Assembly (NCBI GenBank): GCA_947247005.1
Contig: OX365962.1
Span: 2,825,201-2,889,200 of the forward strand
Length of the DNA stretch: 64,000 bases
Direction of reading: 5' to 3'
Source: Spisula solida
Lineage: Eukaryota; Mollusca; Bivalvia; Venerida; Mactridae
Part shown: positions 38,726-62,457 of the stretch, piece by piece
How the letters are laid out: every line of letters starts with the position of its first letter
Numbering within the stretch: the stretch's first letter is position 1
Notes under the pieces: generated by a model
Seen by the model: only the letters and a program-made list of their open reading frames with translations
What the model was told of the DNA's origin: nothing
Databases searched by the model: none
Translations under genes and position numbers: made by a program

Positions 38726-38869
38726 AACGGCGTCTATTTTAAAAAGGGATTGTCTCTTCAATCCCTTTTATAGGCACTGTTTTGCCCTTTTTTAAGGTAC
38801 AAATGGTGATGATTTTTCAATATTCACACGTAAGAAAGAACAAAACACAGTGTTTTTAGTTCATATAAA

Positions 38870-39940
38870 GCTAATTTTATTCAACATTTCATGCAAATAA
38901 GGATTGAAATTGTTATGCCGGCATAACATTTTTGATCAAAAAAGATTTTCTTTTGAGAATTTTTCTCTTATATTTTCTTCAATATTTCATAGATGAAAGA
39001 TTGGATTTGTTATGCCGGCATAACATTTTGAATCAAAATTAATTTTCAGATGATAAATTTTCTATTATTTTCATTCAATATTTCATGCTAGAAATATTGA
39101 TGTTATGCCGGCATAACATTTTGAATTGAAACTATTTTTGTAATGAGAAATTTTCTATTTCATTCAATATTTCATGCAAGAAAGATTTGTTATGCCGGCA
39201 TAACATTTCAAATCAAAAATTATTTTCAAATGAGAATTTTCAGTAAATTTGATAGAAATTTTCAGTCTCATATTATTAAATATTTCATCCAAGAAAGACT
39301 GAAATGTTATGCCGGCATAACATTTTGAGTTGAAAATAATTTTTCAATGAGAAATTTTCAGTAATTTTGATAGAAATTTTCTGTCATATTATTCAATATT
39401 TCATGCAAGAAGACTGGATATGTTATGCCGGCATAACATTTTGAGTCCAAAAAAAATTTCAGTAAATTTGATAGAAATTTTCTATTTTGTCTAAATTGTT
39501 ATGCCGGCATAACATTTTGAATCAAAACTAATTTTCCAATGAGAAATTTTCAGTAATTATGATAGAAATGTTCTGTCATATATTATTAAATAGTTCATGT
39601 AAGAAGACTGGATATGTTATGCCGGCATAACATTTTGAGTCCAACAAATTTTTTTTCACCAAATTTGAAAGAAATTTTCTGTTTCGGATATGTTATGCCG
39701 GCATAACATTTTGAATCAAAAATAATTTCCAAATGAGAACTTTTCAGTAATTTTGAAAGAAATTTTCTATTTTGGATATGTTATGCCAGCATAACATTTT
39801 GAATCAAAAATAATTTCGAAATGAGAAATTTGATAGAATTTTTTGCTGTAGTTTATTCGATATTGCATGTGCAGAAAGATTGGTTATGTTACGCCAGCAT
39901 AACATTTTGAGATAAAAATACATTGTTCAGTAAATTTGAT
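38870..39940 (+). repeat. Left arm of a giant inverted repeat: 11 palindromes TGTTATGCCGGCATAACA
   Basis: The 18 bp palindrome starts at 38911, 39008, 39101, 39188, 39305, 39421, 39497, 39615, 39691, 39779 and 39887. Nine copies are exact; the last two carry GCCAGC. Spacers of 58-100 bp share TTTTGAATCAAAA, GAGAAATTTTC and TTCAATATTTCATGCAAGAA but vary in length. Spacings outside-in (93, 87, 117, 116, 76, 118, 76, 88 from the second copy) mirror those of the arm at 61600-62457, which is in the opposite orientation. Confidence 0.92.
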
Positions 39941-40028
39941 ATACAAGACTTAGTGTACAGGTAGTCATAATTCCACTTTTCTGTGATCTATAAAGAATAA
40001 TTCCATGTAAATAACAAATCACAAAATA

Positions 40029-40695
40029 AACTAGAGGGCCCAAATGGCCATAGGTCGCTCACCTGTCGTAGTAGTGCATGCACACCCCTATGGTGACCCT
40101 ATACATTTTTTGAATAAAATTTAAGGAAATTCAACCTCTTTTGCAACTTTTTTTATAATTTGACCATGTGACCTAGTTTTGGACCCCAGGTGACTTAATT
40201 AATATCAAACTTAACCTAGATTGTGTTGAGATGATCATTAGGACCAAGTTTCATAAAGATTAAGTCGAAATTGTGACCTCTGGTGACTACAAATGGTTTT
40301 TCTATGATCTATAACATTTTCCTCCATATAACAGTACAAATACATGCTTTAAAGACAAACATTACCTAAACACTTAAAAAAATAAAAATATAAAAAGATT
40401 ATGGTCCCAGTGGGGTTTGAACCCACGACCCTCAGGAATATGTCAATTGACTTTTTTTGTTAACATGATCATTGTGACCAAGTTTCTTAAATATTAATTA
40501 AAAATTATGACCTTGAATGACCCTATATCGAACTTGACCTAGATTTTGTTGAGATGATTATTGTGACTAAGTTTCAGATTAAGATTAAACCAAAATTGTG
40601 ACCTCTAGAGAGGACACAAGACAACTGTTGACGGACGGACGACGGACTAAGAGTGATCACAAAAGCTCACTCTGTCACTTTGTGAGAGGTGAGCT
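40029..40695 (+). mobile_element. Pearl-like non-autonomous element, family A (copy A1)
   Basis: Begins AGAGGGCCCAAATGGCC, GGTCGCTCACCTGTC. The core words GTGACCTAGTTTTGGACCCC and TGTGACCAAGTTTC recur. Ends with (ACGG)n and a hairpin AGCTCACTCTGTCAC/GTGAGAGGTGAGCT. Tandem core, ACGG microsatellite and 3' hairpin recall bivalve pearl elements, often viewed as Helitron-like. A tRNA-3'-like segment (GGGTTTGAACCCACGACC) at about 40415 interrupts it. Confidence 0.7.
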
Positions 40696-40978
40696 AAAAA
40701 TGTATACAAGAGAAAGGTGTACACAATTGCATGGTAGAAGTATTAAATATCACAAACATAATTTCAGGTAAATCCAACATATTGGTGTAAATCCCTAGCC
40801 CTCAACTGGGAAAAGTGTAATCTTTACTTTGTGATATTGACATGCTTCCACTCAAGGGCAATGTTAATTTAGATATACAAACAATGCATGAGGTATGCTG
40901 CAGTTCGAGGAATATGGGACAAGAAATATCACTAAATGATGAGTATCCCTAGAAAGTAATGGACACTGTTACACAACA
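40696..40978. other. Short spacer between dispersed repeats
   Basis: No gene or recognised repeat. Confidence 0.35.
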
Positions 40979-41072
40979 TATGTCTCCTCGATAGCCTAGT
41001 GGTTAAGTGTCCGCTTCGAGTGCGGGAGGTCTCGGTTTGACCCCTGTCCGCGTCATACTAAAGACGAAATAA
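40979..41072 (+). mobile_element. tRNA-derived SINE, family V, head-only copy
   Basis: CTCCTCGATAGCCTAGTGG and GTCATACTAAAGACGAAATA match the first ~90 bp of family V. It stops where element A2 begins, so it is truncated or was cut by that insertion. Confidence 0.75.
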
Positions 41073-42385
41073 ACAAGAGGGCCATGTGGCCCTAAGGCCC
41101 TAAAGCGCTCACCTGATGACTAGCAGTTAAGGCAGAATCAGTATATGTTTACATTAATATTTGATGTAGATTTTTCAAATACACACTTTATGGCCAGGTT
41201 TTATAAAGATGAGGTAAAATATGTGACCTCTAGATTGTTTACAAGGTTTTTCTTCAATGTGACCTTGTGACCTAGTTTTTGACCCCAGGTAACCCAGTTG
41301 CGAACTTGACCTAGATTTTATAGAGGTTCACAATGTGACCAAGTTTCATTAAGATTATATTAAAAATCAGACTGCTTGAGTGTTAACAAGGTTTTTCTTT
41401 GATTTGACCTAGTTTTTGACCCAGATGACACAGTTATGAACTTGGCCTAGATTTTATTGACACAAACATTGTGACGAAGTTTCATAATGATTCAAGTAAA
41501 AAATGTGACCTCTATATTTAAACAAGGTTTTTCTTCAATGTGACCTTGTGACCTAGATTTTTATCCCATGTGACCCAGTTGTAAATTTGACATATATTTC
41601 ATAGAGGTTCACATTCTGACCCAGTTTCATTAAGATTATCTCAAAAATGTGACCTCTAGTGTTAACAATGTGTTTCTTTGATTTGACCTAGTGACCTAGT
41701 GTTTGACCCCAGATGACCCAGTTACAAACGTGACCTAGATTTCATAGAGACAAAGTTTGTGACCAAGTGTCATAAAGATACTGTAAAAATGTGACCTCTA
41801 GAGTGTTAACAAGGTTTTTCTTCAATGTGACCTAGTTTTTGACCCCAGGTGACCCAGTTGCGAACTTGACCTATATTTCATAGAGGTTCACATTATGACC
41901 AAGTTTCATTAAGAGTAGGTCACAAATGTGACCTCTAGAGTGTTAACAAGGTTTTTCTTTGATTTAACCTAGTGACCTAGTGTTTGACCCCAGATGACCC
42001 AGTTACAAACTTGACCTAGATTTCATAGAGACAAAGATTGTGACCAAGTGTCATAAAGATTAGGTAAAAAATGTGACCTCTAGAGTGTTTCCAAGGTTTT
42101 TCTTTGATTTGACCTAGTGACCAAGTTTCATTAGGAGTAGGTAAAAAATGTGACCTCTAGAGTGTTAACAAGGTTTTTCTTTGATTTAACCTAGTGACCT
42201 AGTGTTTGACCTCGGATGACCCAGTTACAAACTTGACCTCGATTTTATAGAGACAAACATTGTGACCAAGTTTCATAAAGATTAAATGAAAACTGTGACC
42301 TCTAGAGTGTTAACATTCCAATTGTTGGCGACGGACTGTGGACACCGGACATAGGGTGATCACAATAGCTCACCTTAAGCACTTC
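41073..42385 (+). mobile_element. Pearl-like element, family A (copy A2)
   Basis: Begins AACAAGAGGGCCATGTGGCC, AAAGCGCTCACCTGATGAC. The core is seven or so diverged units of GTGACCTAGTTTTTGACCCC, CAGTTACAAACTTGACCTAG and GTGACCTCTAGAGTGTTAAC. Ends near AGCTCACCTTAAGCACTTCG. The inverted element at 58305-59705 is the same subtype. Confidence 0.75.
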
Positions 42386-42769
42386 GTAAAATCCAGTAAG
42401 AAACAACAAAGTTACAGAGCAGACACAACTTGCATGACTATATAATCTTTGACCTCTAAGTGTGACCTTGAACTTTGAGATAGGGACCTGGTCTTGACAA
42501 AGTTACAGAGTGGACACGATTTTGCTAACAGACCGACAGACCAACTAACATGATGACTCCAGTATACCCCCTTCAAACTTTGCTTGCAGGGGTTTTATTT
42601 ATAAAAATCATTAACAGGACAATAAATGACTTAAAATTGAGTTGACCAAGTTGAGCTGAAGATATGCTCACCTAGCTTTAGTACTGATAAATTAAGTCAC
42701 GACAAGTATCATTGAAATCCAACCAATGGCTAAATAGAAATAAAGCAGATAAAATTATCAGTGTAAACT
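42386..42769 (+). repeat. TGACCTTGAAC-type repeat fragments
   Basis: Diverged pieces related to family B, including a GTATACCCCCTTCAAACTTT terminus followed by GCAGGGGT. No gene. Confidence 0.45.
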
Positions 42770-43445
42770 AGAGCTGTCGCCATTTGGCAGACTAATATAC
42801 CCCCGCCGGCAAAGGACTATAATTCTGCCAATATTCATCGCAGCGCAAATTTCTTTCTTCATGCACATCTATATGTTGAGGTTGTCCGGACGGACGGACA
42901 GACAAGCTGAATCCAGTATACCCCCTTACAACTCGTTGTGCAGGGGTATAAAAGGGCACTTAATTTCTTCAAATTGATTAGACCAACATGTGCACACTAT
43001 GCACAGCTAGACTTGGTACTGATCAGTCCTACAAAGGTTCATTGCATCTGATCAATGGTTATCAAGAAATTGCTTGGACAAAAATATAAGTGTAAAAACA
43101 CAGGTCACTAACTCCCTTAAAACTGAACCGACCAACATGCGCCAACAATATGCCCAATTAAATTTGGTACTAAAAAGTCATTCAAAAGTTCATTGAAATC
43201 TGACCAATAGTTACAAAATAATAGCTCGGACAAAAATATAAGTGTAAAAAACAAATGGCAATAACTCCCTTTAACTTCATAAGACTAAGATGCGCCAACA
43301 ATATTCACAACTTACACAACTAATAAGGCATACAAAAATCCGACAAATGGTAACAGATAAATAGCGCTGACAAAATTGCATGGACCAACCAACTAACAGA
43401 CTGACCTCAAGCATGACTCCAACATACTTTGTATCTGGGGGTATA
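42770..43445 (+). repeat. Family B dispersed repeat (two or more units)
   Basis: Contains GTATACCCCCTTACAACTCG, a GGACGGACGGACAGAC tract, and tandem segments sharing CAACATGCGCCAACAATATG and TTCATTGAAATCTGACCAAT. Related to 45640-46145 and, inverted, to 56205-57070. Confidence 0.65.
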
Positions 43446-43569
43446 ATAAGGTCAATATCAATGTCATCTATAAATATAATAGGCTTAACATATACAATGT
43501 AGTCGTAAGTTATGCATATCCTTGTTGCAATGGAAAGCAAAAATCTTTAATAGTTTTTAAGATATGGAC

Positions 43570-44522
43570 ACTAACAACAAGAGGGCCCAAAGGGCCCTTG
43601 GTCGCTCACCTGTCGAACTTCACCTAGATTTTGTTGAGGTGGTCATTGTGACCAAGTTTTGTACAGATTAGGCCAATATTGTGATGTCTAGTGACTACAC
43701 AAGGTTTTTATATGATTGACCTAATGACCTACTTTTTGACCCCAGATGACCCAATATCGAACTTGACCTACATTTTGTTGTGTTGATCATTGTGACCAAG
43801 TTTCGTAAAGATTATGCTAAAACTGTGACCTCTAGTGACTACACAAGGTTTTTCTATGATTTGACCTTGTGACCTAGTTTTTGACCCCGGATGACCCAAT
43901 ATCAAACCTGACCTAGATTTTGTTGAGATGATCATTGTGACCAAGTTTCATAAAGATTAAGCCAAAATTGTGACCTCTAGTGACTACACAAGGTTTTTCT
44001 ATGATTTGACCTTGTGACCTAGTTTTTGACCCCGGATGACCCAATATCAAACTTGACCTAGATTTTGTTGAGATGATCATTGTGACCAAGTTTCATAAAG
44101 ATTAATTCAAAATTTTGACCTCTAGTGACTACACAAGGTTTTTCTATGATTTAACCTTGTGACCTAGTTTTTGACCCCGGATAAATCAATATCGAACTTG
44201 ACCTAGATTTTGTTAGGATGATCATTGTGACCAAGTTTCATAAATATTAAGTCAAAATTGTGACCTCTAGTGACTACACAAGGTTTTTCTATTATTTGAC
44301 CTAGTGACCTAGTTTTTGACCCTATATGACCCAATATCGAACTTGGCCTAGATTTTGTTGAGATGATCATTGTGACTAAGTTTCATAAGGATTAGGCTAA
44401 AATTGTGACCTCTAGTGTCTACACAAGCCAATTGTTGACGGACGGACGGACGGACAGAAGGACGGACGGACGAAGAGTGATCACAAAAGCTCACTCTGTC
44501 ACTTTGTGACAGGTGAGCTAAA
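43570..44522 (+). mobile_element. Pearl-like element, family A (copy A3, 145 bp core units)
   Basis: Begins AACAAGAGGGCCCAAAGGGC, GGTCGCTCACCTGTCGAAC. The core has about five units with an exact 145 bp period in the middle (GACCTAGTTTTTGACCCCGG at 43871, 44016 and 44161). It ends with (GGAC)n at about 44440-44471 and the hairpin AGCTCACTCTGTCAC / GTGACAGGTGAGCT. This is the best preserved copy. Confidence 0.82.
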
Positions 44523-44532
44523 AACATTTAAA

Positions 44533-44878
44533 CAAGAGATGTTTGTAAAACACGTATGCTCCAATGGCAGCCCAATAGTCAGAAATGGTAAAGGTCACAG
44601 TGACATTGGCCTTTGACCTACTGACCCCAAAATAGAGATCAATAGGTATCATCTACTGTTGATGACCAACCTCCATGTGAAGTTTGAAGATCCTAGGGAA
44701 AAGCATTCTTAAGTTATTGAACGGATACCATTAGAATAGTCAGAAATGGTAACGATCACAGTGGCCTTAACCTTTGACCTACTGACCTCATAATAAAACG
44801 GACGTATACTATTACTATATCCCTTCGCCTTCGGCCTTTGTCGACAAAAGCTCACTATGTGACAGGTGTGCTAAAAAT
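44533..44878 (+). mobile_element. Pearl-like element, related subtype (copy A4)
   Basis: Begins AACAAGAGATGTTTGTAAAA, GTATGCTCCAATGGC. The core GTCACAGTGACATTGGCCTT recurs about 170 bp later in diverged form. It ends with AGCTCACTATGTGACAGGTG. Directly follows A3. Confidence 0.6.
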
Positions 44879-45639
44879 ATTACGTCAACCAGACATTTTG
44901 ACAATAATAAAGAGCTTGTCATGCATTATGTAACATACATGTTACTGTAATTGTCCTAAGTTGATTAAACCAATAGTCCATAGCACTGTCACAAACTTGA
45001 CAAATCCACACAACAGTTTTGGTTTTATGGACTTAAATTGCATGTTCAAAACATATTTTACTATCCTTTCTTCTGAGGCAACACTATTTCTGCAATATAC
45101 ACTGTCTTGAACTATTCTGAATTATTCAATATAAATGCTGTTCTCATCTAGGAATGAACTGAAATAAAGAAAACAAAACAATATTTTACAATTATATGAC
45201 AATGCATTGATTAAGTACAGTATTACACAAAGACATATTAATTATAGTGATTACGTCCAGGGTTCCATCCGTTTTAACACCATTTCTCAACAATCGTTCA
45301 GTTCTTTACGGTGACGAAACCCCCTTATTGACTTTCCTTGACTGTAATAACCAGCACTAATTAAGTAGTAATTACCCTTCCTAATAGAAAAAGCAACTTC
45401 TCCACTGTGTAGGAAAATCAACTTTGTTGGCAAATTTGCATGGGAAAGTGTATGGAACAATTTGGATGGCCGGATTGCAAATCCAGTTCATTAACCCCTG
45501 GGTGGACTGGTTCCATCAGAGGCCGGCCATATCAAAGATGAAGGGTACCAGTTACCATGTGCCCCTCAAAGGATCATAACTGTGGCAATAACAAGAAATA
45601 TCACTAAATGGTATGAATACCCCCGCTACTACTTGACAC
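44879..45639. other. Non-coding stretch, possible 3' sequence of the minus-strand gene
   Basis: Largely unique sequence. On the minus strand a good acceptor (TTCTTTATTTCAG) ends at about 45149, but in the phase of the upstream exons it would stop after three codons. It could be an alternative last exon. Confidence 0.3.
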
Positions 45640-46145
45640 AATCACTCAAATGTGCTCTGACTTATAAATGCACAACTAGAGTTGGTCCTGATCAGTCATG
45701 CATGCAAAATTACATTGAAGTCAGACCAATAGTTACAGAGAAATAGAGCTGACAACATTAATAGGTGTAAAAAACAAAGGGCAATAACTCAAATGTGTGC
45801 CGACAAAATGCACAACTAGGCTTGGTAAAGATCAGTCATGCACAGTTTCGTTGAAATCCTACTACTGGTAACAGAGAAATAGCACGGACAAAATTTATAA
45901 ACATATAAACAAAGGGCCGTAACTCCCTTAAAATTCATCCAACCAACGTGTCCCAACAATATGCATGACTAGACTTGGTACTGATTTTTCATGCAAAGTT
46001 TCATTGAAATTCTACTGTCGGTAACAGAGACATAGCACAGACAAATTTTACATGGACAAACAGGTCAACAGATCAACCAACTAACCTCAAGCATGACTCC
46101 AATATAGCCCCCATATACTTTGTATCAGGGATGTATAATTATAGG
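45640..46145 (+). repeat. Family B dispersed repeat (tandem ~130 bp units)
   Basis: Units share CAAAGGGC.ATAACTC, CAACTAGGCTTGGTA and CATGCAAAGTTTCATTGAAA. It ends with AGCATGACTCCAATATAGCC and CCCATATACTTTGTATC. The mirror of this unit order is at 56205-57070 on the opposite strand. Confidence 0.7.
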
Positions 46146-46342
46146 ACCTACAGTCCTGACAATATGACCAACTAGGTTTAATTGTACTAACAATCGTGAA
46201 TGCATGTTAAGTTTCTAGTTAATCATTGGTTGGATGTCAATGAAACTTGACATGATTAGTTGGTAGATAAAGAAAACACATCTATATATACAAACATATT
46301 CTTGGCCATTAAAAGGCAATTACTCTAGCAATAAACATCGTT

Positions 46343-49300
46343 CTAAAAAAGTTTGATTTTATGCGAGAGACACAAATCTTTCCTTTCTATTATTTGCTTA
46401 GCAGTGAAAGCTGGCTTCTTTCCTTTATTGCTAATGGCAACTGATACCATCAGAACTGAGATTGATTAAAATAATCTAAAAGAATGTATTAATCATTTAA
46501 TGTCCAGATTATTAATATACTTTAAGTCTATGTATACAAGTAGTATATGGCATATATTTACTTGAAGTATACCGTATTAACTAAAAAGTCACTGTGCAAG
46601 TTTGAATCTTACCTTCAGTATGTAATTTAACCACTTTTAGTATAACCAAGTCTTTTACCATCCGCCTGTTCACTACCGGTAATTCTGAAACAAATTTATA
46701 AATTTTCAATATTTAAAAAATGAAAGCTTTTTACGCATGTACTTTGATATGGGAATACGCATTGGTTTAAATAAATAAAACTTTAAATGAGTGAAAAGAA
46801 CAGTATTTTTCAAATCATGTATTTTGTGATTCAAAATTTGTTTGTCACAGGAAATATGTAACGTCCGTACCCCCTCTGTATTAACTACAAAGTACAACAG
46901 AATATCTTGTCACTCATTTATACATAGTACCAGTCTTATTTTAGACACAGCATAAACATTGATATCATTACATAAAATGAGCCTTTTTTAATAAAGGAAC
47001 AAAAATCATGTAGTGTCCGTCCCCTATTAGACATGGTCCAGTGCCAAAAAGCAGGCCTTTAAGTTGACTTTATTATGAGTAATTATCCTTTTTAAAAGGT
47101 ATTTAATGTAAAATCATACAAATGATTAGTTTCTTTAAAAACTGAATGATAAAACTTTTTGTTTTAATTAATGGTTATTTATACTTAAATATATTCAATT
47201 TTTACTTATAAATATTTTAATTTATATTTTATGTCACTTTTTTCTACTTCAATTGTATTTTGTACATTATAAATTGTCTCTCGCATAGAATTGTAAAAGT
47301 AGTTTTTATAAAAGAAGTTTCAAATTCTTTAATCTACTAATTTATATGATATTATATATTGTTTGCTTAGACAAAGAAAATTTGTAATATTTAATAGGAA
47401 GATTAAAAACAACATTCATTTATTGAGGGGACGGACGTTAACAGTTCAAGGGGGTGGACATTATAGTTATGCATCAATTGTCAGTTACTGGTATGATTTA
47501 AGTTTTTATTTCTGATAAGTCAATATTTATACAAATCAAAGATCTAATAATACACTTTTAGATCTTTGTACAGATAAATTTTAGTAATTAACCTATTCTT
47601 TTTTCAGATGCATTATTTCATAAATGGCATTATTTTATATTAAATCCATGGCTTTATTTTTAAAATATATTACAGAGTGTACTCTGTCTTCTAAATATTA
47701 AAGTATGTACTGCAGTCATAAACATCACTTTTTATCTTACTTTAATAATTCCTAGTTTAGTTGATCTCCAAATCAAACCAATATACAATCCTTTCAAATC
47801 AAAGGAGTTATATAGTCTTTTTCCTGTCTCATGCTATTTCAATAATTTAACATCAATTCCTTGTAAACACAATAGATCCCTGCTACCACTACATGATCCC
47901 TAATTTATGCAGCCACTGTCCACAATACTAATATACAACCCTTTCAAGTGGTAGGTTTATGGTCTATTTTGCAGTCTCCTGCAGCTTCAATTATTGATAA
48001 TAAAAACATAGACCTGGCTTAGGATTTGAGCTAGGTTTTGTAATATTACATAATAGGGAGGAGATAATTAATAACTGCAAAGGTAATATTGCACAGTCTG
48101 ACTTGTGGGAGGAATTAATTTAATATACAGTCTGGCTCTGTACATTCAGGGAGGAGCTCAATATGGTCAGATAAAAAATACATATTGTATAAAAATGACA
48201 TGTATAGTATAAATATAATTGATTACAAATGGTATTACAAATTTCTATGAATGTGCGGTGCCAAGATAATTATATAATAATGATGAATATGTATGCCCAG
48301 TGTGCCAGTAAGAACTATGATGAATATGCCCTGGGAAGTGTGCAAGTATGAACTAAGATGGTAATAATGCCCTGTACACCAATATTAACTATACTGAATA
48401 TGCATGATATTCTTTTCTTGTAATTAATAGATGCTGTGATGTATGTGTGTTTGTACAGTTCTCTGTATTAAGACATTATATTCACTATTTCAAACTAATT
48501 AATTAACTAATTTTATTTATGACCTTATTAATTAGTGTAACTTTATACAGTGGTGATAGTTTAAGTCACTGCTAACGCACTGGGCCTGTTATCCAGAGGT
48601 TGTGGGCTCAAATTCCACGGACTTGACGGAAATATTTATTATATTTCTCGCTGTATTTGACCGTGCGTACTGCCAAGTATCTGGGTTAAGGTGCCAGGAA
48701 GCTGTGTATCGGTGCTATACACAGGGCACATGAAAGAACCCGGCTGTCTATTCGAAATAAGAGGCAGCACCTGACATGGCTGTATCTAATCTATCTCTCT
48801 CCCTTAAGGGCATTCTCTCAGTCGGTCAGATCATGCTGTATTTGCAAAGGTAGAGGATAGTCCTGCGTCCTTGTGGCTGCAACACTATAATGTAAGTGCC
48901 TTTGAATGTGTGTTTGCTTGAAAAAGGCGCTCTATAAATCTGGTATATTTATTTAATTTATTTATTAGCTTTCTCAAGTTTCTGTATTGATTACAATGTT
49001 TAAAGAAATACCTTCTTATAATAATAAATCTACATGAAATTGCTTTAACTATTTTAATAATTAAAGTGGTAATCACAGTCCTGAGTTATAACTTAATTAA
49101 TAGATATTGATCTAATTATGTGGTCTAAAATCATAATTTGCATGTTTTGCATAGGAAATGTTTCAGAAACACGTATTTTATATATCTAAAATGATGTTTT
49201 TGGGAGGCGTTTAAGCCTCTCATTACTACCATTGCCCATTTCTTACAAAATACAAAATTAACCGCCTTTAGGCTGCTATGTGAATCCGCATTCAAGTAGT

Positions 49301-52295
49301 TCCAGAAACTGTCAACATTCCCAATACTGCTACATACCGGTATGTTTCTCCAAATTTTTTAACTGATTTAAGCCAATCAGCAACATTTGTTTATTCCAAG
49401 ATCAAAAATTATTGTGAAACTGTTCGTTAAATCGATATTTTTGCAAAAAAATCACTACACTGGCCGATACCGAACTTGTTTCATAATACGAAAATGACGT
49501 GTTCATCAAATGTCCCCGCTGTAAAGCTATTTTTAGACTACGGTCAAGTGATGGTTTTATCAATGAATCGTATACGGTCTGCAAAGTACTGTTACAGTTA
49601 TGCAATCATATGGTGTCGCTGTACTAGCTAGCCGCTTTCTATAGACTGTCTCACGCTGTAAGGGAATTGATTACAAGACCGTACTGTAGAATCTGATAAA
49701 TAGGCGCGTAGTATTATTTTAAAGCCACTTTTGATATACCCATTCAATGCACATATTACATATAAATTAATATGCACCTTTTAACAATTATTTAGATACC
49801 CAACATGCCTATATAGTCACATATGCCTACTTTGACATTCAAGACAAGATCGGCAGTAAGAAAACGAACATTAAACATGTAAAGTCGGTTTAAGCTTTAG
49901 TAGCAGCAACCAGATCGCCTCCCACCAGTACTCTCAGTGCTTTGATTATACACGGTGTAATAATGTGTATAAAAAGAAGAGATAATACACTTTTTTCAGT
50001 GTTTATGTTTGCTGTCTGTATCCAGGGACATATTCATAGGGTGGACAAGTGGTCCAGTGGTAAGAGCTTAGTATTGACTGCTGATCCGAAGATGTGGATT
50101 CTATCCCGCCACATGCCTGATTAAAACAGAAATGCTTTCCATTTGAAGTGTTTCCCATGGTGTACCTAACGTTACTAAAATTACAATTACTGACAGTCTT
50201 TCGAACGAGACTTTAGACAGATCGAGGTCCCGTGTATGATTAAAAGAACCAGGGATGCTTCTGGAAATGGGGCATCTTCTGTATCATGCACTATCCCCCC
50301 AAACTAAAGTGACTAACCTCTTCTGGGGGTCTCTCCCATATGGGTTTCTGGTGGTGAGGATAAATTAAAGCATATGAGCTAGTCTCCAGGAAAACCTGCT
50401 ATTTTGACAAATCATTTGATGTTGAGATTTTTTATTATCTAAAAGAGTAATCTTAATATCTTAATGAAGCAAAATGCAAAAGAAATTTGGTTAATATCAT
50501 GATTTTTAAAGAAGTTACAGCTGTTTAGTTGAGGCCCTATTCAGGCCCTTTTTTGCATGACATCGCAAGCGTCATTCAAACGTTATACGACGTCGTTGTA
50601 ACAAGTACTTTATAAATACTGCATTTGATCAATTCTTGACGTAAACTGGTTAAAGTGGTATCAAGTTTTAGAATGATGTTTTAAGTTTAAAAATATACAT
50701 CCAAAAATGTTCACATTTAGAGAAAGACTACTAGTTACTGTTTTAAACAACTAACTCCTCGTTTTTCTCAATCAGAGTACTTTTCTGAAATTGGTCACCA
50801 TAGTAACAAAGTAAATGATTTCGACATTATTGATTATTAATTAAAAAATTTAAAGCTAAGATGTAGTAATATATGGATAAATGACTTAAAATTGAATCTA
50901 TTGGTATGTCATTTTTTCTTATTTGAAAGCTTTTTTTAGAGCTTGTTACATGCAGTAGATTATAAATGTCAATATAGCAGGTTTTCCTGGAGACTGGCTC
51001 ATATAAAAAATAAGGACAAATTTGGTGGGGGCGTTTGGACCTGAAGCCCCCCCCCCCCCCAGCTGGCTGGCTATATACCAATGAATTGATCAATTGGTGG
51101 CTAACTATATCTCTTGGCATCTTTCTATAGAGACCTGTATATTGGACATGTAAAATATGACATCCACTGTATAGGCCCCCCAGGCATGACTAATCAAGCA
51201 CTCAACATGACCTACTGCTGTTGAAGATGTGATTTGTGAAACTGATAAGACAATTAAAAGTGTGTTTAGGTTGATTAAAGATGGTCAGCCACAGATTACA
51301 TATATAACTGATGTTCACCATTTAATCCCATTAAATTTGAGCATGGTGATTAAAAATTAAAGTTTTACCTGAAGAATTGATAGTTAAATATGACATGCAT
51401 GTACATTGTAATATAATTACAGAGAGAAAAATGTATACTTTTCATTTCTTGTTGGTACAATTAATTAGGATTAAATGTTTGAATGGAAAGTAATGATCAC
51501 AATATTTTTAAATATCATCCATTTTGACATTGAAATGTGTTTGATAAATTTTAGTACTAAGAACTATTTTATATCACTGAATATTAGCTAAAAATTTAAA
51601 GTGCAGGAAATCTCATTAGGCCCACAGACTGCTACGTGCCTGAATATGTTTTTATTATATTATTTATAAATATATCCAGACGACAGGATAGGAACCTGAT
51701 ATTTTAAAACACATATGGCCCAAAACACTATCCAAGCTTAATTACTGGCAATTTTCTATACGGCCGGGTGCTTCTCAGTAAGTTGAGTAACGGGCTCTGT
51801 AAGGCTGTATAGTGTTTTGGGCCATATATTCTAAAATATCAGGTTCCTGTAGGCCTACATAAATTATCATTTTAAAAAACATCATGTTTGAATAAATTAC
51901 ACCATTTTAATTCATACATTGAATGAAGAAATCTTCACATTGAGGGAACACACCTCCATTGTCCCCCCCCACCTTCAACCTCATCTGCCCTGGACCCCCC
52001 CCCCCCCCCCCGTGTTTATGCATGGAAGACAAGAACAAAATGATCATAACATACATGATTTTACCTTTTTAACTTTAATCTTGTAATTTAAATCTTTATA
52101 ATGGTACAGCCTACTACATGTTCACATTATTAATTTACATACATGTAGTTGATTTCTATAATATCACGTAGATCTACATGTTTTTTCTACTAATTCTAGA
52201 TAACGTAGAATCTACGCAATAATTTAATAACTAATTGATTACTTCAATTACTTACCTTCGTCAACTTGTCCAGGTGTAGAATATGTATCTTCCAT
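46343..52295 (-). CDS. Candidate 74-residue protein, three coding exons, unknown function
   Basis: Minus-strand exons 52295-52256 (ATG; donor G|GTAAG), 46684-46613 (acceptor TTTGTTTCAG; donor G|GTAAG) and 46455-46343 (acceptor ATCAATCTCAG; stop TAG) join in phase 1 both times, giving an uninterrupted 74-residue frame. An in-frame stop lies just upstream of the ATG. The product starts MEDTYSTPGQVDE; the middle exon (residues 14-37) is rich in Val, Leu and Lys and may form an amphipathic helix; the last exon has KGKKPAF. No signal peptide and no family recognised. Intron 1 (~5.6 kb) holds a SINE, TIR family D and a hairpin. Support is splice sites and open phase only; the second exon alone is 24 clean codons, which chance could give. 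It could also be the 5' part of a longer, alternatively spliced gene. Confidence 0.4.
46700..48540. other. Intron sequence without recognised features
   Basis: Very AT-rich. Two patches of plain text similarity to GGGGACGGACGTTA near 47430 and CGTCCGTACCCCCTC near 46862 suggest an old small inverted element around 46860-47455. No exon supported. Confidence 0.35.
48545..48965 (+). mobile_element. tRNA-derived SINE, family W (copy 2)
   Basis: Head with AACGCACTGGGCC and GGTTGTGGGCTCAAATTCC; body with GTGCCAGGAAGCTGTGTATC, GGTGCTATACACAGGGC, CATCATGCTGTA-like words and a 3' end GGCGCTCTATAAATCTGGTA. Collinear with the inverted copy at 37570-38045. Lies in intron 1 of the minus-strand candidate gene. 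Confidence 0.75.
48966..49935. other. Intron sequence without recognised features
   Basis: AT-rich. A 67-codon minus-strand frame at 49402-49605 has no splice or family support. Confidence 0.35.
50040..50372 (+). mobile_element. tRNA-derived SINE, another family
   Basis: Head GACAAGTGGTCCAGTGGTAA (A box) with GTGGATTCTATCCCGCCAC (B-box-like). The body ends near GGGGTCTCTCCCATATGGG. Single copy in the window, so its 3' limit is uncertain. It abuts TIR family D. Confidence 0.6.
50376..51006. mobile_element. TIR family D, full-length copy (~630 bp)
   Basis: CATATGAGCTAGTCTCCAGG and AAAACCTGCTATTTTGAC at the left are inverted at the right (AATATAGCAGGTTTTCCTGG, AGACTGGCTCATATA). Partial copies at 1545 and 13890 share the right terminus and interior words. 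No transposase-like frame. Confidence 0.75.
51046..51061 (+). repeat. Poly(C) tract
   Basis: A C14 homopolymer just after GAAGC. It creates a Gly run in the minus-strand frame at 50827-51120, which I do not regard as coding. Confidence 0.9.
51062..51685. other. Intron sequence without recognised features
   Basis: No supported exon or repeat. Confidence 0.35.
51688..51848. mobile_element. ~160 bp fold-back element
   Basis: AGGAACCTGATATTTTAAAA and ATGGCCCAAAACACTAT at the left pair with ATAGTGTTTTGGGCCAT and CTAAAATATCAGGTTCCT at the right: arms of about 42 bp around a ~75 bp loop. No coding. Confidence 0.85.
51960..52015 (+). repeat. Poly(C)-rich tracts
   Basis: GTCCCCCCCCACC and a run of about 16 C before GTGTTTATG. 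Similar C/G homopolymers recur at 53060-53110 and 53727-53775. Confidence 0.85.
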
Positions 52296-52570
52296 CGCAA
52301 TATAGATTAGATGTTGAAAATAATTCACTAACAACCAAGTGCGTACGTATATCCTTGGTTTAACTGTTTAACTGTTAAAGACAATTTCCAGGACGAATTC
52401 ATTAATTATAAACGTGTAAAACATAATTGAGAAATGTCGTTTTAAAACACTACAGCAAACTGTTAATTCTTTCTGATGTATTATTTTGCAAACATTATAA
52501 AGTTTCTAATCGATAAATCCAAGTAAAACGACATATAAGAAGATAAACATTAAACATTACGTTGCCTTTA
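52296..52570. promoter_or_regulatory. Putative bidirectional promoter region
   Basis: This segment separates the ATG of the minus-strand candidate gene (52295) from a possible 5' exon of the plus-strand candidate gene (donor at 52725). AT-rich; a weak TATA-like TTTATAAG is at 52566. The call depends entirely on the two gene models being right. Confidence 0.3.
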
Positions 52571-52724
52571 TAAGAATGGTCCCTACACATATAATGGACT
52601 AGACCAGGCACCCCACTGCGTATCTGTCTACCGGTCAGTGTGTACACACACGACATAAACCGCGTGAAGCTGAAGAGGACTGCATCTTTACACGGACCAT
52701 GACTGATGTATAAATGAGGCTGAG
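52571..52724 (+). other. Possible 5' untranslated exon of the plus-strand candidate gene
   Basis: Ends GGCTGAG|GTAAGAT, a strong donor, 3.2 kb before the first coding exon. It contains two upstream ATGs: a four-codon uORF (ATGACTGATGTATAA) and an ATG at 52714. If spliced to 55886, the second gives a 20-codon uORF ending in TGA at 55935-55937, overlapping the main ATG by the four bases ATGA. The 5' limit is unknown. Confidence 0.3.
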
Positions 52725-52839
52725 GTAAGATATACTGTCTGTATTTGTGTCTTTTTATTTTAAATTTAATTATAACGACTTGATTGTTCAGTATTCAGTA
52801 ATGCATGTATTTGTTGATTAAATTTAGATGCGTTTAAGA

Positions 52840-54710: not shown

Positions 54711-55885
54711 TATTTTCTTGTGTCTATTTGCTTATTTTTGGTAAATAAATTCAGTGGTATTCCACTGGTTTTTCTTTTTATTACCTCCCCTTATTAAAAA
54801 TTCCACATATATATTAAAAATTCCAAAATACTCTTTAAAAAAACATTTTGTTATATCCACATTATCATATAAAGGGAGAGGTTTATTAAATTAATTTGAC
54901 AAAATTGAAAATTCATAATTTCAACTTTACATTAATTAAGCCACAGTACAAGTACTAAAAACTTAACCCTGTCATTATTTAAAACTATCTGAATGATTTT
55001 CGGTGACTTGCATGTAAGCAGCAATTATTGTTGAGTACTTTCCTTTTAGTTCTTACTTGGTGTCTGACCATGAGACTATAGGGTTCTAAAGTGAAATGAA
55101 TGATAAATAAATTTAAAAAGATTTTTATGGATATAAGTGAAATTTTCCTCAAACCTTCTCTGGAATTCCGGTGGTATCAGAGAAATTTTTACTAGTATAT
55201 CAGTGGAATGCACTATTATTCCAGTGGTATACCAGCGGTAAAAAGTTTGTGGTATTCCAGTGAAATTTACCGCTGGTATATATGTATACTAATGAAACTT
55301 TTACTAGCTGTTAATGAAAATAGCGAAAGTAGATCCGCTTAGTAACTGTTGTTAGGAATGAGATAGCTGCATAGGTACCTTAAGTGTTAAGACTACACAT
55401 GTACATCGGAAGTCGGGCAATTGGCCCTTTGAGGTCAAGGTCACTGGAATTAAATACTGAAAACGAAACTTTCCTGCTCAATTTTTCAAGTAAGGTATGG
55501 GCCATTGGTGGTCATGGTCACTGGAACTAAAAATTGAAAAAAAAAATTCCTGTACAATTTTCTTGTAGTTACCTAGTTAAGTATGAGATAACATTGGTTG
55601 AACTTGCTGTGTATTAATTTAGCTTGTGTTAAAACCGCCGCTTTGGATTGAACATGGGACTGGTGAGGTCAATGCCACTGTGACAAAACAGCATATATCC
55701 ATTTCTGTCAAATTACGCTTTGCTGTCAGACATGAAAATCTGGTTTTTGCGAAATTTCCTTATCGTGTATGCCTTTTGTGCTCTGATTTATGCTGTTGAA
55801 TGCTCTGTCCTGGAGTGTCATCATGTCTGTTTTGTTATTATCTTTTTAACCAAACTGTAAGACTTTTGTATACTTTTCATTTCAG
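54711..55885. other. Intron sequence without recognised genes
   Basis: Includes a GTGGTATTCCAGTGG-rich stretch at about 54752-55270 in which ATTCCAGTGGTAT-like words recur, and TGAGGTCAAGGTCACTGG words at about 55430 and 55505. No exon supported. Confidence 0.4.
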
Positions 55886-55933
55886 ATCACACTTCAATGG
55901 CCTGTATGAAAGTGATTTCTGGTCAATTGAAAA

Positions 55934-58900
55934 ATGACTGCCTTTTGCACTGGTAGGTGTACTAATAATATATTCATACACCCACTACTGAAGTGGGGGG
56001 GGGGTGCTATATACATGTAGGAGTCACTTTGTCGGTCCTTCTGTCCCAATGTTTGTCCGGGCTGTATCTTCTGTATGCATAGATGGATTGTCAATAACTT
56101 GGTACATTTGTTCGCCTTGATGAGTCGGTGTGTCATGCGGAACAATTACGTCAATATCTCAGGTCAAGGTCACACTTTGAGTTGAAAGGTTAAAAATGGC
56201 AATAATTATACCCCCAGATACATAGTATATGGGGGCTATATTGGAGTCATGCTTGAGGTTGGTTGGTCTGTTGGTTGGTCCGTCGGTTGGTCCGTGCACA
56301 TTTTGTCTGCGCTATTTCTCTGTAACCCTTGGTCGGATTTCATCAAAACTTTGCATGACTGATAAGTACCAAGTCTAGTTATGCATATCGTCGACACACG
56401 CTGGTCGGATAAATTTTAATGGAGTTATGGCCCTTTGTTTTATTACACTTAGAAATTTTGTCCGGCTATTTCTGTTACCAATGGTCGGATTTCAATAAAA
56501 CTGTACATGAATGATCAGTACCACGTCTTGTTGTGCATATCCTCAGCACACGTTGGTTGGATAAATTTTAAGGGAGTTATGGCCCTTTGTTTTTTTACAC
56601 TTAGAAATTTTGTCTGCGCTATTTCTCTGTTACCAATGGTCGGATTTCAATGAAACTTTACATGAATGACCAGTACCAAGTCTAGTTGTGCATATCCTCG
56701 GCAGACGTTGGTTGGATAAATTTTAAGGGAGTTATGGCCCTTTGTTTTTTTACACTTAGAAATTTTGTCCACGCTATTTCTCTGTTACCAATGGTCGGAT
56801 TTCAACGAAACTTTGCATGAATGATCAATACCAAGTCAAGTTATCGCCGACGCACGTTAATCGAATAAATTTTAAGGTAGTTATGGCCCTTTGTAATTTT
56901 CACTTATAAATTTTATCCGCGCTATTTCTCTGTAACAAATGGTCGAATTTCAAAGAACCTGTGCATCAATGATAAGTACTAAGTCTATTTTTGCATGTGG
57001 TCGACACACGTTGGTCGGATCAATTTTAAGGTAGTTATTGCCCTTTGTTTTTTTACACTTAAAATTTTAATATTTCTTGTTGAGCTTGTCCGGAGCATAA
57101 CTTAGTCATTTATTGTTGGATTTGAAAATAATGTGCCACAAATGTTCACTACTACCAGACGGTGTGTCATGCATAACAAATACATCAATATCTCAAAGGT
57201 CAAGGTAACACTTGGAGTTCAAAGGTAAAAAATAGCCAAAATTGAGCTTGTCCGGCTCATAACTAAGTCATTTATGTGATTTGAAAATTATTTGGCACAA
57301 ATGTTAACTACCACCAGACAGTGTGTCATGCGAAACAATTACGTCAATATCTCATAGGTCAAGGACACAATTGGAGATGAAAGGTAAAAAATGGCCATTA
57401 TTGAGCTTGTCCGGTTCATAACTATAAAGTCATTTATTGTGGGATTTGAAAATAATTTGGCACAAATGTTAACTACCACCAGACAGTGTGTCATGCGAAA
57501 CAATTACGTCAATATCTCATAGGTCAAGGACACACTTGGAGTTGAAAGGTAAAAAACGGCCAAAATTGAGCTTGTCCGGCTCATAACTAAGTCATTTATT
57601 GTGGGATTAAAAAAATAATTTGGCACAAATGTTCACTACTTGCAGATTAGATTCCAATAAAATGCATGTGATAATTATGTCAATATCACAAAGGTCAAGG
57701 TCACGCTTAAGAGTTCAAAGGTCAGAAAGGACCATAATTTATGTTGTCGGGAACATAACTTCATCAAATAGTGTTGAATTTAAAAATAACTGTACAATTG
57801 TTGTCCACCATGCAACAGTTTTTATCGATGTTGTTTGACATACGTCTGTGACAAAGCGGTATGTGGGGGTATCATTAGTCACTCTGTGGCAGTTCTAGTT
57901 ATATATAGCCTCCTACTGGTTTGCAACCAAATGGTACTATAGATTATATATACCCCCCACACAACAAGTTGTAAGGGGGTATACTAGATTCAACTTGTCT
58001 GTCTATACGTAGACGCATTCTTGTGAATGCAACTTCTACAGTTCTTAGCACACCTGTCACAAAATGACAGGGTGAGCTTTTGTGATTGTCTGTCATCCAT
58101 CCGTTCACAATTTCCTGTGAACACAGTTCAACACACTAGAGGCCACTCTTATAACCAATCTTCATAAAACTTGGTTAGAATGTTTGTGTCTATAAAATCT
58201 TAAGTGCCAAGTTCGAAACTGAGTCATGTGGGCTCAAAAACTAGGTCACTTTATCAAATCTTAAAAAAAGCTTGTAAACACATAAGAGGACACAAGAATT
58301 GGGCTGATCGAAGTGCTCAAGGTGAGTTTTTGTGATGGCCCTATGTCCGTCGTCCACCGTCCGTCGTCCATCGTCAACAATTTGACCGAGGTCACAGTTT
58401 TCACTTAATCTTTATGAAACTTAGTCACAATGTTTGTCTCTATAAAATCTAGGTCAAGTTCGTAACTGGGTCATCTGAGGTCAAAAACTAGGTCTCTAGG
58501 TCAAATCAAAGAAAAACCTTGTTAACACTCTAGAGGTCACATTTTTTAAATAATCTTAATGAAACTTAAACACAATGTGAACCTTTATGAAATCCAAGTC
58601 AAATTCGCAACTTGGTCACCTGGGTCAAAAACTAGGTCACAAGGTCACATTGAAGAAAAACCTTGTTAACACTATAGTAATTAGAGGTCACATTTTTCAC
58701 TTAATCTTTATGAAATTCTGTCACAACGTTTTTCTCTATGAAATCTAGGTCAAGTTCGTAACTGGGTCATCTTGGGTCAACAACTAGGTCAAATCAAAGA
58801 AAAAACTTGTTAACACTCTAGAGGTCACATTTTTGACATAATCTTAATGAAACTTAATCACAATGTGAACCTTTATGAAATCTAAGTCTAGTTTGCAACT

Positions 58901-60595
58901 GGGTCACCTGGGGCTAACAACTAGGTCACAAGGTCACATTGAAGAAAAACCTTATTAACACTATAGAGGTCACAATTTTCACTTATTCTTTATAAATGAA
59001 ATTTGGTCACAATGTTTGTCTCTATGAAATATAGGTCAAGTTCGTGACTGGGTCATCTTGGGTCAAAAATTAGGTCACTCGGTCAAATAAAAGAAAAACC
59101 TCGTTAGCACTTGAGAGGTCACATTTTCGACATGAAACTTACTCACAATGTGAACCTTCATGAAATCTATGTCAAGTTCGCAACTGGGTCACCTGATGTC
59201 AAAAACTAGGTCACAAGGTCACATTGAAGAAAAACCTTGTTAACACTCTTAAGGTGACATTTATTACCTAATCTTTATGAAACTTGGTCACAAGGTTTGT
59301 CTCTATGAAATCTATGTCAAATTTTTAACTGGGTCATTTTGGGTAAAAAAACTAGGTCACTAGGTCGCATTAAAGAAAAACATTGTTAACACGCTAAAGG
59401 CATTATTTTTGACATAATATTAATGAAACTTGGTCACAATGTGAACCTTTATAAAATCTAGGTCAAGTTCATAAATTGGTTGTCTGGGACAAAAACTAGG
59501 TCACCAGATTACATCAAAGAAAAACGTTGTTTATACATAAGAGGTCACATTTTTTACCTCGTCTTTATAAAGCCTGGCCATAAAGTGTGTATTCCTGAAG
59601 TCTACATCAAATATTAAGGTCATATCATAACAAATACTGATTCTGCCTTAACTGCTAGTCATCAGGTGAGCGCTTAAGGGCCAAATGGCCCTTTTGTTTC
59701 GTTAAGTTGTGAGCTGGGCATAGTGCATTGTATGTTTTCTGTGCTCGGCTGGTTAAAGTCTGGAGCTGCCTCTCATGACCGACTTAATGTAATCATTTTT
59801 AGTTGACTCAGTATTCACCTAAAGGTCCCACTCATTGATAAAATTAGTGGTGTGGTATGCAGTGGACTACAGCCAGCACATTACGTCCAAGAAATCAACA
59901 ATTTATGCTAACAGTTGACCTAAAAAGCAACAGTAATTTGTAAATAAGCTCTTATTTTAATTCAAAGGGAGGTAATTTTAAAAATATCAATGACCCAAAC
60001 TGCATTAATCAGCTAAGACATTTTCAGTATCAAACTTGTTTTTCTTAACAACATTTCGTGTATTAAATTTATGTTTACAACTTAAAAACAGGTCAACAGC
60101 CCCCGAACGGATAGTTTGAATATGAATAATGTTTTTTTTTACAAAATCAGTTATTCCCCTTTCCGTTCAGTAATTTTGAGTTGTTTTCCCTGGAATTCTT
60201 CTACGGGGTGCTCCCGTGGGCAGTTGAAATGTCACGATGTCTGAACTTGGTTATTTTCTTAATGAGCATTGAAATATCCATATATGAATAATATAAAGTT
60301 TCTTTTTTTGCTCAATATACATGTAGTTTAAAATGTCATTCAGTCTATTATCAGGTAATTGAACATTGTGACGATTTATATTGCAGGCTATGAAAGCAGT
60401 TGCTGCACCTCATCATCGTACAGAATTAACGTTACTGAACAAGGTGAATATACATGTAGCGAGAGGAATAGAGATATTATACAACACAAACATATCAGTC
60501 CTGAAGAAATGGAAGCTGAAATAGACATCTTCGATATGCTAGTGTCTTCTCCATATCACTCAAAACTTGTAGCTAATTGTAACCTCTTCGAGTGA
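55934..60595 (+). CDS. Candidate 75-residue cysteine-containing protein, two coding exons, unknown function
   Basis: Coding exons are 55934-55952 (exon from 55886, acceptor TTTTCATTTCAG, donor G|GTAGGT) and 60387-60595 (acceptor TTTATATTGCAG, stop TGA). They join in phase 1 at Gly7. The ATG is preceded by an in-frame TGA two codons upstream, which fixes the start, and has A at -3 (AAAAATGA). The protein has Cys at 5, 12, 13, 30 and 71, an acidic segment at 46-56 (EEMEAEIDIFD) and a C-terminus ending NLFE. No signal peptide or membrane helix; I do not recognise the family. A 3' UTR to the AATAAA at 61506 is plausible. The 4.4 kb intron is filled with inverted family A and B repeats. The last exon is convincing as a coding exon; the 19-base first coding exon is less certain. 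Confidence 0.5.
56205..57070 (-). repeat. Family B dispersed repeat, inverted (~200 bp units)
   Basis: Begins ACCCCCAGATACATAGTATA, TGGAGTCATGCTTGAGG, then four or five units of GAGTTATGGCCCTTTGTTTT, TTTGTC.GCGCTATTTCTCTG and TACCAATGGTCGGATTTCA. It is the reverse complement of 45640-46145 and related to 42770-43445. Confidence 0.75.
57071..57905 (+). repeat. ~160 bp tandem repeat, related to family B
   Basis: Units with TGAGCTTGTCCGGCTCATAA, GGCACAAATGTTAACTACCA, GACAGTGTGTCATGCG and ATATCTCATAGGTCAAGG occur about every 160 bp from ~57085 to ~57720 (five copies). It ends with AAGCGGTATGTGGGGGTATC. Confidence 0.8.
57945..57985. repeat. Palindromic TATACCCCC terminus
   Basis: TATACCCCCCACACAACAAG then TTGTAAGGGGGTATA: a small inverted repeat that matches GTATACCCCCTTACAACTCG at about 42916. 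Probably a junction between two family B termini. Confidence 0.6.
58048..58304 (-). mobile_element. Pearl-like element, family A, truncated inverted copy (A5)
   Basis: CACACCTGTCACAAAATGAC and AGGGTGAGCTTTTGTGAT are the inverted 3' hairpin end of family A. One core unit follows (CTCAAAAACTAGGTCACTTT), then it stops where A6 starts. Confidence 0.65.
58305..59705 (-). mobile_element. Pearl-like element, family A, inverted copy (A6)
   Basis: Starts with the inverted 3' end (CGAAGTGCTCAAGGTGAG, then CCGTCCACCGTCCGTCGTCC), then about eight core units (ACTAGGTCACAAGGTCACAT, GTTAACACTCTAGAGGTCAC). Ends CTAGTCATCAGGTGAGCGCT and AAATGGCCCTTTTGTTTC. Same subtype as A2 at 41073-42385, opposite strand. 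Confidence 0.78.
59735..59792 (-). repeat. Dispersed motif M (inverted copy)
   Basis: The reverse complement reads GAGGCAGCTCCAGACTTTAA then CCAGCCGAGCACAGAAAACA, a diverged copy of the motif at 10437 and 30113. Confidence 0.5.
59793..60386. other. Intron sequence before the last coding exon
   Basis: No repeat or exon recognised. Ends in the acceptor TTTATATTGCAG. Confidence 0.4.
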
Positions 60596-61525
60596 CCATG
60601 ACCCACTGTTGGAATTGTGTATCCATGCTAGTTATGGAAATTCTTCGCTTGAATCATGGATGTCTGGGAACTTGACCAACCACTTAACCAATGTATGTGT
60701 TTGTAAAATAGAGGTGCTGTTGCAATCAACATCACATGGTGTAGTGAGATCAGAAGAACCTTAAGTTAAACCAAACATTAAAGTTATCATCTTCAAGCCT
60801 AACAGAGACTCAGAGACTTGTGACTGTTGTCAGTGTCAGGGATATAATATGCGACCATAGACACTCAAAGATATTTGAGAACATCTACAGACTCATGGTC
60901 ATCATAGAATCATCATAGACACATGATCAGTATTCTGTACATAGAGGAGAACATAAACGGGCAAAAAAAGACTTATACTAGGTTAATATGTCAAATTTTA
61001 AAAAACCGCCGGTACTAGGGTTTGAATATGGTAATTGCGATTCTTTGAGAAGTGTTTGTCTCGATAAATTGAAAATAAGAGTTTGTATATTCATTATTGG
61101 TCCTTATGACAGTGTTTGAGGAACTTGATATTCAGCCAACCAAGATAACATATTATTCCACTTGATCCGATTGAACTTTAATGGACTTAAATTAGAGTCG
61201 GGTCTTCCTAAAGACCTCCTGTTTATCGCAAATGACAGCAAGAATGTTCATAGTTCTAATAATGCCAATATGGTCGATTGTGACCCTGAAAATGGCAAAA
61301 TTTGATATTTTTTATTCAAGCTTTATACTTTTATGTTTGAGAACCATGTCACCTGTATTATTTTCATAATCCTTTATAAAAATGAACCATAACTAACTGG
61401 TCCAGCAAGCTTGCGTTTTGCGGCTCTTGATTATATTTTGGACATGGTGTGACATGGACTTTAGTCCGACTGTCTGGTACCGTACCTTACATTTGCAGAC
61501 TTTTGAATAAAAACCTATATCACTA
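60596..61525 (+). other. Probable 3' UTR of the plus-strand candidate gene
   Basis: Follows the TGA at 60593-60595. It has no repeat family seen elsewhere in the window, and ends near a canonical AATAAA at 61506-61511 (TTGAATAAAAACC). The assignment depends on the gene model. Confidence 0.4.
61506..61511 (+). terminator. Canonical polyadenylation hexamer AATAAA
   Basis: AATAAA about 910 bases after the stop at 60595, with no better hexamer closer. Cleavage would fall ~15-30 bases later, just before the right palindrome arm. Confidence 0.4.
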
Positions 61526-61574
61526 GGCTGAATCTTAGGTCATCCTTTTGGATGCAAGCTTTTTAGCTCCACTA

Positions 61575-62457
61575 TTCTGGCATGAAATATTGAATGAAAT
61601 AAAATGGAAATTTTCTGATTGGAAAATTATATTTGATTCAAAATGTTATGCCGGCATAACATATCCAATCTTTCTGAATACAATTTCTATCAAATTTACT
61701 GAAAATTTCTCATTTGAAAATTATTTTTGATTCAAAATGTTATGCCGGCATAACATATCCCAAACAGAAAATTCTATCAAATTTATCGAAAAAAATATTT
61801 TTGACTCGAAATGTTATGCCGGCATAACATATCCAGTCTTTCTTGTATGAAATATTGAATATTATAAGACAGATAATTTCTATCAAATTTACTGAAAATT
61901 TCTCATTTGAAAATTATTTTTGACTCAAAATGTTATGCCGGCATAACAAAACCATCTGTGCATGAAATATTGAAAAATCTAAGACAGAAATTTTCTATCA
62001 AATTTCTCTTTTGAAAAATATTTTTCCTTTCAAAATGTTATGCCGGCATAACAAATCCAATCTCTCTGTGCACGAAATATTGAATAATATGAAACAGAAA
62101 ATTTCTATCAAATTTATTGAAAATATCTCCTTTCAAAATGTTTTTGGTCCCAAATGTTATGCCGGCATAACAAATCTTTCTTGCATTAAATATTGAATAA
62201 TATGAAACAGAAAATTTCTATCAAATTTATTGACATTTTCTCCTTTGAAATTTTTTTTGGTCCCAAATGTTATGCCGGCATAACAAATCTTTCTTGCATG
62301 AAATATTGAATAAAATAGAAAATTTCTCATTACAAAAATATTTTCAATTCAAAATGTTATGCCGGCATAACATCCAATATTTCTAGCATGAAATTTTGAA
62401 TGAAAATAATAGAAAATTTGTCATCTGAAAATTATTTTGATTCAAAATGTTATGCCG
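61575..62457 (-). repeat. Right arm of the giant inverted repeat: 8 palindromes plus one broken
   Basis: TGTTATGCCGGCATAACA starts at 61644, 61738, 61812, 61931, 62036, 62155, 62268 and 62355, all exact. A ninth at 62448 breaks after TTATGCCGG. Outside-in spacings are 93, 87, 113, 119, 105, 119, 74, 94, matching the left arm from its second copy except one (105 versus 76). Spacers are near-identical reverse complements of their left-arm partners (for example 62286-62354 against 39119-39187). Confidence 0.92.

Follow-up and report, generated by a model that had tools for sequence, protein, structure and literature searches.

A multi-copy family of giant DNA transposons with palindrome-array arms in Spisula solida, and a candidate DUF7869 transposase

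Introduction

In the En/Spm (CACTA) and Ac/Ds transposons, many short transposase-binding sites are found in both subterminal regions. Foldback elements have inverted arms made of tandem units, and Teratorn, an element of the piggyBac type, generates TTAA duplications. DNA transposons of great length should be uncommon, since they transpose less efficiently the farther apart their inverted repeats lie, and the Ising TE (transposable element) of Drosophila is a very long mobile segment lying between foldback elements (PMC6431247). The Sola elements (Sola1, Sola2 and Sola3) are described as having 4-bp duplications (AT-rich in Sola2), a DDD transposase, variable termini and inverted repeats of 11 to 1124 bp, with some elements exceeding 15 kb (PMC10741241, PMC3627910). 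Academ elements (AcademX) make 3-4-bp duplications and include two lineages tied to helicase and nuclease (PMC10045372); they are prominent in bivalves, at a mean of 5.6 kb (PMC10294476). CACTA elements have CACTA/CACTG ends and 3-bp duplications (PMC10741241), and Polintons have 6-bp duplications (PMC10045372). Here we describe a 29.6-kb element that begins within a 64,000-nucleotide stretch of the genome of the bivalve Spisula solida (assembly GCA_947247005.1, contig OX365962.1, positions 2,825,201 to 2,889,200; hereafter the window), and its relationship to a gene for a protein with the Pfam domain DUF7869.

Results

The window element belongs to a giant, low-divergence, multi-copy family of DNA transposons with precise ends and 4-bp target-site duplications. 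Searching the genome (932 Mb, 36 contigs) with a 201-bp left-arm query revealed near-identical arms genome-wide, many of them in inverted pairs approximately 22-29 kb apart, and six further copies match the window copy along its length. When the comparison was made in 250-bp chunks (95 chunks by six copies, or 570 cells), 536 cells were covered to 90%; identity was at least 98% in 439 of the covered cells and at least 95% in 516, with per-copy medians of 98.2-99.6%. The remaining chunks coincide with insertions, deletions and tandem repeats. Both termini of the window copy, and the ends of all six compared copies, begin with AACGGCGTCTATTTTAAAAAGGGATTG; the one exception is the left end of the C1 copy, which is damaged and has its first 14 bp replaced.

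Ends were mapped with a terminal 180-bp query (40 matches, the best 40 of 50 candidates). A 24-nt end pattern allowing up to two mismatches was found 43 times genome-wide, and its reversed control not once. Twenty-four of the 43 ends form 12 inverted pairs, 11 of which span 23.2-30.5 kb and one 55.1 kb, so that the inverted arm pairs which a first-pass annotation of the window had suggested seeking elsewhere do exist. Another end is that of the C1 copy, and 18 are single by the pattern. The inverted pairs are spread over eight contigs and have different flanks. Both ends could be read in 12 pairs, and 11 of these show a matching 4-bp duplication: ATGA (C20, the window copy), TTTC (C4), ATGC (C15), ATTT (C12a), TTTT (C17), ATAA (C11), TTTT (C8), AAAT (C3:60), ATAC (C3:54), GTAC (C3:13) and ATTC (C12b). 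The pair lacking one, C3:26206555-26230820, has both ends present and is flanked by GTAT and AATG, a mismatch perhaps due to recombination between two copies. The central 1.2 kb of the element is present at full length, 98-100% identical, in at least 13 places (from the best 40 of 4186 candidates): 11 of these lie inside the 11 shorter pairs, and the rest belong to the copies on C1 and C19.

The left terminus of the window copy, starting with AACGGCGTCTATTTTAAAAAGGGATTG, occupies positions 38726..38775 (plus strand) and includes a perfect hairpin at 38742-38769 (AAAAGGGATTG-TCTCTT-CAATCCCTTTT). The first-pass annotation had taken the palindrome array for the edge (38870, or about 38860) and estimated the size at some 23.5 kb. 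The element in fact begins farther out, at 38726, and its right arm is broken by a satellite at 62466. The target-site duplication that the annotation advised looking for at the left outer edge was found as ATGA at 38722..38725. The right terminus is at C20:2893545 (window-equivalent 68345), about 4.3 kb past the window end, because a satellite of 32-bp and 61-bp GACTAGTC units (62466..64000, continuing to about window-equivalent 68040) has expanded within the right arm. Beyond it come the two outermost palindromes, of which one has 2 mismatches, then the terminus and the second ATGA (C20:2893546-2893549, window-equivalent 68346-68349). These satellites are built on the palindromic core GACTAGTC and adjoin the interrupted transposon palindrome, here and in L042. 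The insertion target is a 53-bp tandem satellite (38325..38725), which is taken up again in the same phase past the right terminus. If the flanks are joined and one ATGA removed, the resulting 53-mer matches the satellite units at 51/53 positions and the phase continues, as opposed to 32/53 for flank plus element. The joined flanks restore a precise empty site within the satellite.

The arms are arrays of the 18-bp palindrome TGTTATGCCGGCATAACA, of which the window holds 17 exact copies and 3 with 1-3 mismatches (0.03 expected from the shuffled window; 0 of 100 shuffles reached 20). Eleven copies, 9 of them exact, make up the left arm (38911..39904, plus strand) and are proposed transposase-binding sites; the inner part of the right arm (61644..62465, minus strand) has 8 exact copies and one with 3 mismatches, the outermost, at the start of the satellite. 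The leftmost palindrome, at 38911, has its partner on the right side beyond the window. Self-alignment pairs 39015-39831 with 62458-61609 as inverted repeats, 84% identical over 859 columns; other long registers reach 65-75%, and one short stretch (184 columns) 82%. The first-pass annotation was accurate on these points: recounting gave the same 11 copies on the left and 8 plus a broken one on the right in opposite orientation, its outside-in spacings proved exact on re-measurement, and the alignment falls in the register it had given for homologous inverted arms. Each terminal inverted repeat measures about 1.1 kb and consists of a fixed 50-bp end with the hairpin followed by 9-11 spaced palindromes. 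The exact palindrome occurs 310 times in the genome, and its reversed control is absent. Among the first 50 of these occurrences listed, 49 are in element arms on C1 and C3, and the remaining one adjoins a single C2 end. Neither the palindrome nor the end pattern matched viral contigs, and the letters of the palindrome were not met in the literature searched.

The palindromes look constrained, in that they appear to have changed more slowly than their spacers in the arms aligned. When the left arm of the window copy is aligned with the undamaged right arm of the C12 copy, palindromes are 98.9% and spacers 89.3% identical. Against the two arms of the 55.1-kb element (see below), palindromes agree at 162/162 and 165/165 positions and other positions at 80-81%; against an arm at C3:51.3 Mb the values are 161/165 and 79%, and against a C14 arm 154/163 and 86%, all these comparisons being subject to the aligner's possible preference for palindromes as anchors. 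Not every relative has kept its palindromes intact (5/8 exact at C3:51.3 Mb, 5/9 at C14); the commonest decayed form in the compared arms is a CpG change, largely shared by descent.

By the searches made, the window family encodes no recognisable protein. For the interior (39930..61600), all six frames of 46.0-61.0 kb and five of the six of 40.0-46.0 kb were searched, and neither they nor the additional 4.7 kb carried by the C8 copy yielded a Pfam domain at E<=0.1; no DNA polymerase, capsid or herpesvirus domain was found in the searched frames of the window copy. A tblastn search with 93 DUF7869 homologues (E<=1e-3) gave no match in the window or in any of the six whole copies, where all matches were those of P0001, a frame of the window itself. 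When 27 open frames were compared between copies, 25 had no excess of silent over amino-acid changes; the two with such an excess, 49894-50121 (4 silent, 1 other) and 50830-51189 (2 and 1), hold very few changes. The two small genes that the first-pass annotation had placed inside the element therefore find no support, while its statement that no transposase, integrase or DNA polymerase frame lies there agrees with these searches.

Repeats occupy much of the interior. A dispersed repeat of approximately 145-bp units (41085..42385, plus strand, limits set by eye), a passenger insertion, has relatives at about 43575-44520, inverted at 58070-59700, and in L017, L044 and L045. Farther in, the inverted repeats at 41-44/58-60 kb and 46/56-57 kb were considered as longer arms and are read instead as dispersed repeats in opposite orientation, the first pair because related stretches are found in other loci. 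A dispersed 750-bp high-copy repeat (49197..49950, plus strand) is present in 13 of 13 listed element copies and in at least 27 other places among the scored matches, at 93-94% identity. It was probably already in the progenitor; the sharing of one insertion by all listed copies suggests that the family was amplified from a single repeat-laden ancestor.

The 55.1-kb pair, C4:57078685-57133795, is a divergent relative with the same termini, the same palindromes and the duplication TTTC; its first 50 bp are 98% identical to those of the window family. In its right half lies a multi-exon gene with matches to Pfam DUF7869 (E 6.9e-27; 3.8e-17 and 1.3e-12), whose predicted model has plausible splice sites; the exons read are free of internal stops. 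The two ends of this element resemble each other (81%) for about 3 kb inward (L044:2001-3200, C4:57130760-57131696), which makes its inverted repeats longer than the arrays of palindromes. A DUF7869 homologue is predicted to adopt an RNase H/DDE transposase fold that matches DDE enzymes, and the exon searched had no phage match and no PDB match by sequence. Two of the exons recur at C3:51.3 Mb, 18.8 kb inward from another end of this type that also has palindromes; identity is 94.1% across 271 aligned positions (with a gap of 9 bp) and 97.4% across 117.

Genome-wide, at least 86 DUF7869 matches (among the best 150 of 185 candidates) merge into 67 loci. Five of these loci are located on the inner side of an end, at no more than 25 kb from it, and none at that distance on the outer side; all five point toward the end in question. 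The expected number is 0.077 (P ~2e-8), for a 25-kb limit that was picked after seeing the data; at 60 kb the same five are inside and none outside. Among the five, C4 is the only one with both element ends known. Two DUF7869 genes with equal or near-equal exon-by-exon scores, at C17:19676351-19679417 and C5:45468118-45470936, are away from AACGG ends and probably belong to another element family. The domain occurs in bivalves, lancelets, echinoderms, hemichordates, corals and a sponge, and the closest relatives of the gene linked to the element point to a bivalve host; the literature searched made no mention of DUF7869 or PF25273.

At least 11 of the scored DUF7869 matches are held by a 1042-aa frame with OTU and DUF7869 domains, in a compact 5.0-kb DNA transposon (L047:1035-6052 and L048) that makes 4-bp duplications. 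Two of the eleven were compared and are 99.2% identical over 5.0 kb; their ends are CGAGGGGTTAGA, and they are flanked by the duplications ATAT and TTAT. Recurrence of the frame length suggests recent activity.

In the window itself, Rfam and tRNA scans came back empty; two tandem arrays (24400-25466 and 14272-15166) have 39-bp and 58-bp units that by eye look tRNA-derived or SINE-like.

Discussion

The window element very probably belongs to a family of giant non-autonomous cut-and-paste DNA transposons of 23-30 kb, which a DUF7869 DDE transposase recognising the palindromes would mobilise in trans. The first-pass annotation's suggestion of a giant DNA transposon with subterminal palindromic sites has held up, given the inverted pairs, the at least 13 near-identical centres, the common termini, the 4-bp duplications and the empty site. 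We infer the identity of the enzyme, a candidate DDE transposase, from its predicted fold and from the related element. The 55-kb relative would make a DDE/D transposase with DUF7869 as its catalytic core, which could bind the palindromes of both arms as a dimer, bring the far-apart ends together and cut at AACGG; insertion through 4-bp staggered cuts would leave the 4-bp duplication. The many palindromic sites may be what makes pairing of ends 24-55 kb apart efficient.

That annotation had also considered an inverted segmental duplication, in which the arms would be an inverted satellite duplication around ordinary sequence, spread by rearrangement. Arms that are arrays of repeat units and a repeat-rich interior fit such an origin, which is nevertheless extremely improbable: the ends are exact and common to the copies, 11 of 12 pairs have target-site duplications, the copies sit in different flanks on eight contigs, and the empty site is precise. 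The 18 of 43 ends without a partner by pattern count against a family of whole 24-kb units, but on the annotation's own view that arms occurring mostly singly or in random orientation would sink the giant element, the outcome is mainly in the element's favour, 24 ends being in inverted pairs of similar distance and content. The single ends would suit a composite in which each arm of about 1.2 kb is a transposon of its own and two inverted copies mobilise the DNA between them, like the foldback (FB)-flanked TEs of Drosophila. So would the tandem-array structure of the arms, and three single ends (C11:42256969, C8:20445420, C19:6066152) for which the scored matches include no centre. In each of the eight copies read, however, the arms are of distinct types, with spacings of 117, 116, 76 on the left and 105, 119, 74 on the right (some single units lost), which indicates that the whole unit is inherited together; and in 19 pieces of six copies scanned, termini were found at the outer ends and none at an inner arm edge. 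We regard a composite as quite unlikely.

The mover might instead be the transposase of an unsearched element or a host-domesticated enzyme. This is unlikely, even though neither the window nor any of the six whole copies showed a DUF7869 relic, which argues for it and against the enzyme proposed here: the DUF7869-coding element shares with the window family 98% of its first 50 bp, identical palindromes and the same duplication length, and five loci link the domain to such ends. We therefore favour a DUF7869 protein that binds the palindromes and moves the 24-kb family in trans.

At least 13 copies, their centres 98-100% alike, have arisen from a 24-kb unit in which no genes are recognisable, so something must have overcome the distance limit, and the conserved palindrome arrays offer a ready candidate answer. 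For Pfam DUF7869 the predicted fold points to a likely function, that of a DDE transposase, and the domain is now linked to defined ends and a duplication length. Far more tentatively, DUF7869 proteins could be the transposases of an undescribed animal superfamily, whose giant members synapse ends 24-55 kb apart through dozens of palindromic sites and so move gene-sized blocks in trans; if this were true, those giants would be an animal counterpart of large cargo-carrying elements.

Keyword searches of the available literature listed no giant or palindromic element, in bivalves or elsewhere, that looked like this one. Maverick/Polinton and Teratorn are comparable in large size (PMC6431247). 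The first was rejected, in keeping with the first-pass annotation, on 4-bp rather than 6-bp duplications and the lack of any Pfam match in the searched window-copy frames; the second differs in that the 4-bp duplications here are not of the TTAA type and no herpesvirus domain was seen in those frames. Repeated short subterminal sites in both arms recall En/Spm and Ac/Ds, but the ends here are AACGG and the duplications 4 bp, unlike those described for CACTA. Foldback elements and the Ising TE differ in that each unit here has one arm of a left type and one of a right type, and its contents are shared. Academ resembles the family in its duplications of 3-4 bp, and the 5-kb DUF7869 family in size; the 1042-aa frame, however, contains OTU and DUF7869 only, and no nuclease or helicase Pfam domain was found in it or in P0002, P0004, P0005, P0006 and P0030. 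The Academ and Sola literature consulted gave no transposase sequence that decides membership. With terminal inverted repeats of fixed ends, 4-bp duplications and an empty site, the family has the hallmarks of terminal-inverted-repeat cut-and-paste elements. Sola is best read as the closest described superfamily, on the likeness of its duplications and inverted-repeat length; compared by description rather than by transposase sequence, the present family stands apart from Sola in its 23-55-kb size, its arrays of 18-bp palindromes and its large non-autonomous form.
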